Positions 15,522-17,642 of a stretch of DNA of 64,000 bases are shown here, piece after piece (position 1 is the first letter of the stretch; the number at the start of each line of letters is the position of its first letter). Under the pieces are notes generated by a model that saw nothing but the letters and a program-made list of their open reading frames with translations, did not search any database and was not told where the DNA came from. Location of the stretch: NCBI GenBank assembly GCA_024275635.1, contig JAJRYT010000085.1, positions 1 to 64,000 on the forward strand, given 5' to 3'. The stretch comes from Chloroflexota bacterium (GTDB lineage: Bacteria > Chloroflexota > Anaerolineae > Promineifilales > Promineifilaceae). A program made the position numbers and the translations under genes.

Positions 15522-16196
15522 GTGAAACACTTACCTTTCACTCGCCATTGGTTGGTTTTTACTATCATTTTTTTATTGGCTTTATCTGCTTGCGAACGTC
15601 CTGTCCCCAGGGAGAACACACCCTAATCGCCCGATGCAGCGCCAACAACCGAGGTGATCATCATTCCCACCGCACCGCCAGTAGTAGACACCGCCGCGAC
15701 CGCCGCGGCAATTGATGCCGGCGGAACCGGCGATGCAACGACAGATACGTCAGCCGGGGATACCGCTGATTCCACCAACACAACAGATACGCCAGCTGAG
15801 ACACCGGCCGCAACGCCACCGGAACAAGCGACTATAGAAGCAGGCGGACCGGTTACCCACGTGGTAAAAACTGGGGAAACACTAGGCGAAATCGCACAGT
15901 TATATAATGTTTCCATTGAAGAAATCGCTGCTGCCAATGGCATTACGAATTTTGATTCGTTAGATGTCGGTCAAGAACTGATCATTCAGACTGGCGCTGC
16001 CAACAGTGGAGACAATGGAAACGCCAATACGCCCCCCGGCGCTGGCGAGCAAGTACATATCGTCCAGGCGGGGGACAATCTGTTCCGGATTGGCTTGCGT
16101 TATGGCTTCACGGCCGAAGAATTGGCCGCATACAATAACATCTCTAATGTAGCCCGCATTGATGTAGGACAAGTTATCAAGATTCCGCCGAAGTAG
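15522..16196 (+). pseudogene. LysM-domain lipoprotein interrupted by an in-frame TAA
   Basis: GTG 15522 has a perfect AAGGAGG. It opens a lipoprotein signal (MKHLPFTRHWLVF..., lipobox LSAC) that stops at TAA 15624-15626 after only 34 residues. The same frame continues without another stop through a Thr/Ala/Pro-rich linker and two LysM domains. These are HVVKTGETLGEIAQLYNVS and VHIVQAGDNLFRIGLRYG, each ending in a DVGQ segment. Without the stop this would be an ordinary surface-anchored peptidoglycan-binding lipoprotein of 224 codons. It is a recent nonsense mutation, a sequencing error, or a read-through or restart case; GTG 15651 is a possible restart. Confidence 0.75.
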
Positions 16197-16220
16197 TAAC
16201 GCTCAGAGATATTCCCATTG

Positions 16221-16321
16221 GTAACCGTTCAGCCGCCAACAGACTTTTGAAGTTTTGCAGTCGAGTACACAACCACACATAGCGCCAAAACTTCAAAAGT
16301 CTCCAGGGGGGAGTGAACGCT
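16221..16321. mobile_element. MITE-like element, copy 1
   Basis: About 100 bp with imperfect terminal inverted repeats (TAACCGTTCAG / CTGAACGCTTA-like) and an internal inverted repeat AGACTTTTGAAGTTTTG / CAAAACTTCAAAAGTCT. It is almost identical to the copy at 17449. ATTCCCATTG flanks it on both sides (16211-16220 and 16323-16332), which looks like a target-site duplication. It carries no gene. Confidence 0.8.
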
Positions 16322-16329
16322 TATTCCCA

Positions 16330-16866
16330 TTGAGTGACAAACAGTCTGATATTATTTGGCAGAAGGACGGTTCATGGCGATTACGGGTGGAAACGGTCGT
16401 TTTACCCAACACCCCGCCATTTGAACGCGCCTATATCGAACATCCCGGCGCAGTGGCGCTAATTCCGCTGCGACAGACTGGCGGCGAGCCGGAGATATTG
16501 ATGCTGCGCCAATACCGGCGCGCTTTAGACCAGATCATTTTGGAACTCCCGGCCGGCACACGCGGCTGGGAGGAGGATTGGCTGGCCTGCGCCCAACGCG
16601 AATTACAGGAAGAGACCGGCTTTCGAGCTAAATCGCTCACTTTTCTGGGGGAGGTTTGGCCAGCCCCCGGCGTGTCCAACGAGTTGATGCGGCTCTATCT
16701 GGCGACAGAACTGCAGCCTGATCCTTTGCCGCAGGATGTGGATGAAGAAATCGAACTCCAGCCGATGCGCCTATCTGAACTGGCGGCGATGGCGCGTGAC
16801 GGCCGTATCCGCGATGCCAAGAGCATCATCGGCATTTTACGCACAATCGAATACCTCCAACAGTAA
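16330..16866 (+). CDS. NUDIX hydrolase (ADP-ribose pyrophosphatase-like)
   Basis: The Nudix box is complete: GTRGWEEDWLACAQRELQEE followed by TGF, fitting G-x5-E-x7-REUxEExGU. It follows EHPGAVALIPL and LRQYRRALDQIILELPAG, typical of ADP-ribose and related nucleoside-diphosphate sugar pyrophosphatases. TTG 16330 is proposed as start because it gives 178 residues and conserved-looking sequence. The open frame continues upstream to 16255, but that part is MITE sequence. The element may have displaced the original upstream region, and no good ribosome site is visible for TTG 16330. Confidence 0.82.
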   Translation: MSDKQSDIIWQKDGSWRLRVETVVLPNTPPFERAYIEHPGAVALIPLRQTGGEPEILMLRQYRRALDQIILELPAGTRGWEEDWLACAQRELQEETGFRAKSLTFLGEVWPAPGVSNELMRLYLATELQPDPLPQDVDEEIELQPMRLSELAAMARDGRIRDAKSIIGILRTIEYLQQ

Positions 16867-16932
16867 TGGTACAGGGTAATCATTCACTCCCCAGTCTCTA
16901 GCCCCAAGAAGTCAATTTTAGACGTTAACTTT

Positions 16933-16960
16933 TTGCCTTCCCCTCTCTACTCGCTATAAT
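16933..16960 (+). promoter_or_regulatory. Promoter of the Fur-family gene
   Basis: TTGCCT (16933-16938) and a perfect TATAAT (16955-16960) are 16 bp apart. Confidence 0.6.
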
Positions 16961-16972
16961 ACGTTCTCCTTT

Positions 16973-16990
16973 ATTGCGAATAATTGCAAT
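16973..16990. promoter_or_regulatory. Palindromic operator candidate for the Fur-family regulator
   Basis: ATTGC-N8-GCAAT (ATTGCGAATAATTGCAAT) lies just downstream of the expected transcription start and before ATG 17013. This placement suits autorepression by the metal-sensing regulator. Confidence 0.4.
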
Positions 16991-17012
16991 AACATCATTT
17001 TGTAATAATACT

Positions 17013-17447
17013 ATGACGCATCATACACTTGATTACAAACAACGCCTCCATAAACAAGGTTGCCGCCTGACGCCGCAGCGTCAAATCATCCTGGACACTA
17101 TTTGCGCGATGGACGGCCATGCTACCGCCAATGAAATCTATGCCCGCGTTCATGCCGATATGCCAGCCATCAACCGGGCCACTGTATACCGGACGCTCGC
17201 CTTTTTTTGTGATCTACAGGTACTCGGCTCCGGCAAGATTGACGGCAAAACGATATACGAAATCGCCGCCCCTACCCCGCATCACCATCTAGTTTGCCGC
17301 CAATGCGGGCAAGTAGACACACTAGACAACCTCCATTTTGAACAACTAACCGGGCATTTGATTGCTGAACATAACTTCCAGCCTGATATCAACCATTTAA
17401 CAATTTCTGGTCTCTGCGCGAACTGTCAGCAAGGGAACAAAGCGTAG
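17013..17447 (+). CDS. Fur-family metal-responsive repressor
   Basis: 144 residues. The winged-helix N-terminus includes GCRLTPQRQIILDTI and NRATVYRTLAFF (recognition helix). The metal region has HHHLVCRQCG and a final LCANCQQ, giving two CxxC pairs for structural zinc. Fur paralogues sense Fe, Zn, Ni, Mn or peroxide. The nickel/cobalt ECF transporter just downstream makes a Nur- or Zur-like role plausible but not proven. ATG 17013 is chosen; the open frame upstream of it covers the operator. Confidence 0.85.
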   Translation: MTHHTLDYKQRLHKQGCRLTPQRQIILDTICAMDGHATANEIYARVHADMPAINRATVYRTLAFFCDLQVLGSGKIDGKTIYEIAAPTPHHHLVCRQCGQVDTLDNLHFEQLTGHLIAEHNFQPDINHLTISGLCANCQQGNKA

Positions 17448-17448
17448 C

Positions 17449-17551
17449 GTAACCGTTCAGCCGCCAACAGACTTTTGAAGTTTTGCAGTCGAGTACACAA
17501 CCACACATAGCGTCAAAACTTCAAAAGTCTCCGGGGGGAGTGAATGCTTAC
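17449..17551. mobile_element. MITE-like element, copy 2
   Basis: Near-identical to copy 1, with the same inverted repeat AGACTTTTGAAG / CTTCAAAAGTCT and the same ends. AGCGTAGC flanks it on both sides (17441-17448 and 17552-17559), an apparent 8-bp target duplication. It begins immediately after the Fur-family stop codon, separating this gene from the transporter genes. Confidence 0.8.
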
Positions 17552-17642
17552 AGCGTAGCAAAATAACAGAGTGGCCGTGCGACAAAGCGCCGAACAACCT
17601 GGCAACCTCGCCACTCCGTGCCTACTTTCAAAGGAACATGTC

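Follow-up and report, generated by a model that had tools for sequence, protein, structure and literature searches.

Two MITE copies with IS66-type ends in a Chloroflexota genome, and unrelated palindromic cores within the same end frame

Two repeats of about 100 bp in a 64,000-nucleotide stretch of a Chloroflexota draft genome (contig JAJRYT010000085.1; hereafter the window) are, very probably, copies of a non-autonomous MITE that has IS66-type ends, is mobilised by an IS66 transposase and carries a hairpin cassette as its core. In genomes of several phyla, one IS66-type end frame carries about 20 unrelated, mostly palindromic cores.

Two copies in the window and their relatives in the genome

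Copy 1 (positions 16221 to 16324, plus strand, 104 bp) is located between a LysM-type ORF, whose stop codon ends at 16196, and a NUDIX-type ORF, and copy 2 (17449 to 17551, plus strand, 103 bp) follows a Fur-like ORF (16974 to 17447); these ORF names are presumptive, being read from the translations without a database search. The copies are 98% identical across an ungapped stretch of 90 bp, confirming the sequence-only reading of the window, which had described two near-identical units of about 100 bp. Both have inverted ends (GTAACCGTTCAG.. and GTAAGCGTTCAC..) and the layout GTAACCGTTCAGCCGCCAAC, a 17-bp arm, a 28-bp loop, the complementary arm and CC(A)GGGGGGAGTGAACGCTTAC, with small differences. 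The arms form a perfect 17-bp inverted repeat (AGACTTTTGAAGTTTTG and CAAAACTTCAAAAGTCT), the right arm being the exact complement of the left at 16286 to 16302 (minus strand) and 16241 to 16257 (plus strand) in copy 1, and at 17514 to 17530 (minus strand) and 17469 to 17485 (plus strand) in copy 2. By eye, an imperfect palindrome can be made out within each arm, and the arms stand in inverted orientation to each other. The inverted ends and strong internal hairpin of the earlier description are thereby borne out, the fold of copy 2 scoring a z of -4.2 as DNA and -5.6 as RNA against shuffled sequence. The arm motif occurs four times in the window versus 0.15 expected; this excess and the fold scores exclude a chance origin of the repeats.

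An exact 8-bp direct repeat flanks each copy (strand not assigned): TCCCATTG at 16213 to 16220 and 16325 to 16332 for copy 1, and AGCGTAGC at 17441 to 17448 and 17552 to 17559 for copy 2, the left repeat of copy 2 taking in the Fur-like ORF's stop codon, which stays intact. The presence of flanking repeats had been recognised from the sequence alone, but the 10-bp length proposed then is replaced by 8 bp: the longer version, ATTCCCATTG, was rejected as the 8 bp plus a chance AT, a match that arises only through the T, in place of C, with which copy 1 ends. Neither copy contains a transposase ORF, and in their short length, terminal inverted repeats and lack of a transposase gene both have the features of a MITE. 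A lone relic end, GTAATCATTCACTCCCC, lies at 16876 to 16892 (plus strand); inspection by eye revealed neither a partner end nor a duplication for it. Copy 2 had no match at E 1e-5 in either a phage or a plasmid collection.

The window's own draft assembly (5.7 Mb in 253 contigs, 93.65% complete) was searched for further copies with different duplications, a check suggested by the sequence-only reading. An initial search scored 40 copies among 63 candidates, and the set was completed by means of an end pattern (55 matches) and an arm pattern (50 and 51 matches), giving at least 47 two-ended and 5 partial copies, a total that may still be low. With the partial copies left out of the count, an exact 8-bp duplication flanks 33 of the 47 and a duplication with seven of eight bases matching flanks another 8; at the ends as called, the other 6 have no clear duplication of 8 bp (6 or fewer bases matching), one of them (C92) having a 9-bp match instead and another matching at six of eight bases. 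In a control that set the left flank of one copy against the right flank of another, 2162 pairings gave no exact match and two matches of seven in eight. The duplications mostly differ between copies, as is characteristic of a MITE present in multiple copies.

Copy lengths are mainly 103 to 105 bp. Three copies of 79 bp and two of 86 bp have lost loop sequence and kept the stem, save for one damaged arm (C99). The mean pairwise identity of copies is 97%, and 11 of 40 full-length copies equal the consensus exactly; this high similarity suggests a fairly recent burst of the MITE and, by implication, recent activity. Three copies in this genome (G000 C17:18419, C91:55477 and C243:2269) share an altered end, GTACGCG, despite having exact or near-exact duplications, and the end mutation may therefore be passed on by transposition.

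Among the 39 of 47 copies with sufficient flank for the comparison, 32 lie outside crude ORFs, versus 14% of random positions, and the insertion sites are AT-rich (39% versus 53% G+C). Empty regions were sought in two congeners, the region of copy 1 being aligned in G002 and that of copy 2 in G001. The LysM gene neighbours the NUDIX gene in G002, where the copy 1 element is absent, and the Fur-like gene and the next gene are adjacent in G001, where the copy 2 element is absent. These relatives thus offer empty sites at the level of the region, the identity being about 72-76%, a divergence at which the exact target base is not recognisable. In G002, the locus orthologous to window positions 16200-16340 (L299) contains a different small hairpin and a T run, terminator-like by eye. 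The sequence-only reading had made its MITE-like element with target duplications depend on further copies and on empty sites in relatives, and it is supported by the 47 copies and the element-free congener regions.

IS66-type ends and the source of transposase

As described in the available parts of two papers, IS66 is marked by inverted repeats starting with GTAAGCG and by 8-bp repeats (PMC11946415), and Pseudomonas IS66 elements have the ends GTAAGCGTCCGG and GTAACCGTCCGG (PMC12888890). The MITE ends, GTAASCGTTCA-, and the 8-bp duplications are those of IS66, combining a GTAA(G/C)CG start with a duplication of the same length. The MITE is like the single-transposase type of IS66 (PF03050) in its GTAAGCG/GTAACCG-type terminal inverted repeats and 8-bp target duplications; unlike IS66, it is without a transposase gene, has an unrelated interior and is about 100 bp long, compared with 1.5-1.7 kb.

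A scan of public genomes for GTAASCGTTCACYCCCC returned at least 116 stretches. Desulfobacter vibrioformis has a 1645-bp element with GTAACCGTTCACTCCCCC ends, an exact 8-bp duplication and a single long ORF, the protein of which is a PF03050 transposase (E 6e-32). Within the window's own family, PF03050 is present in 21 of 52 genomes; two of the family (G064 and G006) contain 1558-bp IS66 elements with GTAACCGTTCAG ends and exact 8-bp duplications, and two (G028 and G061) contain complete IS66 elements with matching ends and no duplications, G028 harbouring MITEs with an AGACTT core in the same genome. A 1678-bp IS66 element in G011 has GTAATCGTTCACATCCCCC ends and no duplication, and G033 has an IS66 with a GTAATCATTCACTCCCCC left end only; their transposases are 52% and 40% identical, respectively, to that of D. 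vibrioformis. Several IS66 copies with matching ends (L305, L306 and L407) are without duplications. The ends of these IS66 elements resemble both ends of the MITE without matching them exactly.

In the window's own 5.7-Mb draft genome, searches with PF03050 and two transposase protein queries found no IS66 transposase. The earlier observation that no transposase lies nearby consequently extends to all 253 contigs, and its proposal to match the ends to transposases of the same genome succeeded only in part: none was found there, and the matching IS66 ends are those of related genomes. An IS66 partner with matching ends, which would be supporting evidence and not strictly defining if it shared the genome of the MITE, occurs in other genomes only. 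The donor may be missing, lost or within the unassembled part of the draft, its expected form being an intact IS66 bounded by GTAACCGTTCA/GTAAGCGTTCAC. In another genome (G023), contigs C101, C14 and C114 (L318, L325 and L329) stop within the initial portion of an IS66 transposase, the pattern to be expected if multi-copy IS66 disrupts assembly. Two apparent larger elements, of 2701 bp (L158) and 3950 bp (L157), were rejected as separate ends around ordinary genes with no duplications across them; the right end of the 3950-bp unit belongs to a 103-bp element.

Judged from these sequences, the MITE would be mobilised by an IS66 transposase. A DDE transposase of the IS66 family, provided in trans, would recognise ends of the form GTAASCGTTCA-, pair them and, on what is known of the family, excise or copy the unit; the hairpin may help ends that are just 100 bp apart to meet. 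The unit of about 100 bp would then enter AT-rich intergenic DNA, where a stagger of 8 bp would give rise to the 8-bp target duplications.

Conservation of the hairpin stem

In the hairpin stems, 1 of 1560 cells is substituted, compared to 102 of 3110 elsewhere in the element (76 of 2102 in the left end and loop, 26 of 1008 in the right end). This count covers 46 of the 47 two-ended copies, which were chosen by end pattern with at most three substitutions allowed per arm; the partial copies, one of which (C73) has a single arm substitution, were left out. For substitutions private to one copy, the numbers are 1 of 1560 in the stem versus 28 of 3110 elsewhere (Fisher p 2e-4, such p-values being indicative only because related copies do not contribute independent cells and because of the ceiling on arm substitutions). 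The difference holds for both base classes, with variation in 0 of 10 G/C columns of the stem versus 30 of 41 elsewhere, and in 1 of 24 A/T columns versus 15 of 29. Were the hairpin a passive spacer, it would not be expected to be better preserved than the ends. The stem appears to be under constraint, which points to a need for the hairpin; selection during transposition, retention by the host or quasi-palindrome correction could be the cause.

In the last case, the perfect stem would stem from template switching between the arms during replication and not from selection. Correction would account for there being just one stem substitution among the 46 copies, and in several palindromes of other genomes the central triplet of the arm differs on both sides together. 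However, correction should fix about half of changes into both arms, so matched changes are expected, and no copy in this genome has a matched change in both arms. It is a possible explanation of the stem, although not the one that we would favour.

Less likely still is that the host keeps the copies as RNA or DNA hairpins acting as a terminator, an mRNA stabiliser or a protein-binding site. The intergenic placement would agree with such a role, as would the conservation of the stem among private substitutions too, but no terminator-like site was called at copy 1 or copy 2, and both sites are without the element in the aligned congener. A search of the region against Rfam likewise returned no family above threshold; the lone weak match, to an miRNA, scored 20.8 bits against a threshold of 50 and was dismissed as chance.

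Different cores between the same ends

The end motif was found in 12 of 59 genomes of relatives. Framed elements were collected from locus L076 onward as units of less than 260 bp with both ends and at least seven of eight duplicated bases, resulting in 66 distinct elements, 11 of them from the window's genome, whose cores fall into 20 clusters when linked by two or more shared 11-mers. Two-ended elements come from what we take, from the record names, to be Chloroflexota, Pseudomonadota, Desulfobacterota and Nitrospirota, and single ends are more widespread; other end types are under-represented because the search motif is C-rich. The cores of the 66 elements have a median fold z of -4.85, with 83% below -2, compared to a median of 0.07 and 8% below -2 for 131 control stretches of flank. 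Cluster medians are at or below -2 in 17 of the 20, the exceptions being L179/L193, L279/L291 and L162. The Sedimenticola elements L179:5180-5320 and L193:5458-5549 share one core, with an extra stretch inside the hairpin of one of them. In Candidatus Methylumidiphilus, a hairpin with other ends is nested within an IS66-framed MITE (L244:1187-1428).

Some of these palindromes also occur outside the frame. The palindrome GTTCCCACG..CGTGGGAA was found in 6 of 9 genomes searched; of the 30 loci inspected, 21 are unframed, 5 have both IS66-type ends and 4 have one end (the end search tolerated up to 2 mismatches, and a few one-sided calls may be chance). None of its four loci in the window's own genome is framed, and partly decayed framed relatives are present there too (L068 and L070). 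For the Candidatus Methylumidiphilus core GCGGGCGTCTCGCCCGC, 25 of 30 loci, taken from 96 matches, are framed on both sides, 3 on one side and 2 on neither. The MITE's own AGACTT core, searched as a degenerate palindrome pattern with at most 30 bases between the halves, was located at 15 places in 8 of 52 genomes; by eye, 7 have an IS66-type end at either side, 1 has a single end and 7 have no recognised ends, one of the last group being at a contig edge and some being related in the outer bases only. Free palindromes of the form AGACTT-NNN-AAGTTT..AAACTT-N'N'N'-AAGTCT, the central triplet altered on both sides, occur in several genera of the family (L283-L286, L289 and L290). The presence of the same palindromes both free and framed suggests that hairpin repeats exist independently and were caught between IS66 ends. 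The interior of the MITE would accordingly be a hairpin cassette and not a shortened IS66, most likely captured from free-standing palindromic repeats; for the window's MITE itself, capture of its own core from a free hairpin repeat is probable, with less certainty than capture in general.

A classical origin, in which internal deletion of one IS66 left the hairpin behind and the other cores are independent deletion derivatives, would be in keeping with the IS66-like ends and with the IS-derived MITEs of other bacteria described in the available portions of the literature. It is nonetheless disfavoured by a comparison with seven IS66 elements, in which the window MITE's own core had no match at E<=1 and the other cores had no convincing match, the best being at E 0.05. 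Moreover, about 20 unrelated and mostly palindromic cores are unexpected from random deletions, and one core family also occurs free, leaving internal deletion an improbable source.

The MITE's core is similar to REPINs, the REP doublets associated with RAYTs, in being an inverted pair of short palindromes; the MITE differs in being bounded by IS66-type ends and 8-bp duplications (PMC3733652, as far as its text was available). That a RAYT (tyrosine/HUH) transposase moves the pair of imperfectly palindromic arms, the outer ends being incidental, is very improbable given the exact 8-bp duplications right outside the GTAA ends in 33 of 47 copies, which are typical of a DDE enzyme, and the recurrence of the same ends around unrelated cores.

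Other known elements, as portrayed in the accessible sections of the respective papers, share some features with the MITE assigned here to IS66. Like MITEPsy1 (PMC3189936) and MITECca01 (PMC9769881), it is small and non-coding, has inverted ends with many copies or duplications and is of a kind thought to be mobilised in trans. MITEPsy1 is, however, listed as 'IS5?' with 4-nt duplications and MITECca01 is assigned to IS982, whereas the present element has IS66 ends and interchangeable hairpin cores. TIMEs, Tn3-derived mini elements that form mosaics, are likewise non-autonomous ends with different interiors, but they have Tn3 ends, 5-bp duplications and gene modules instead of hairpin repeats as interiors (PMC4133298). 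MITEs, IS66 and, from the TIMEs in the part of that paper available, MITE-like ends with varying interiors are hence already known; the available text of open-licence papers described neither MITEs with IS66 ends nor an exchange of hairpin cores within an IS66 frame.

A more general and distinctly speculative proposal, in our estimation doubtful, is that IS66-type ends are a general vehicle for hairpins, in which a palindromic core is needed and any free palindrome that is caught would become a new mobile family. The core may then join ends about 100 bp apart via a cruciform or single-strand folding. The findings present a case of a mobile element whose stem is preserved far better than the ends that its transposase would recognise. 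They would also link the abundant, unexplained hairpin repeats found in environmental bacteria with a named transposase family and provide a testable rule, namely that IS66 ends plus a hairpin move. If the vehicle proposal is true, IS66 transposases would be behind the spread of many of the anonymous hairpin repeats that occupy intergenic DNA in environmental bacteria.
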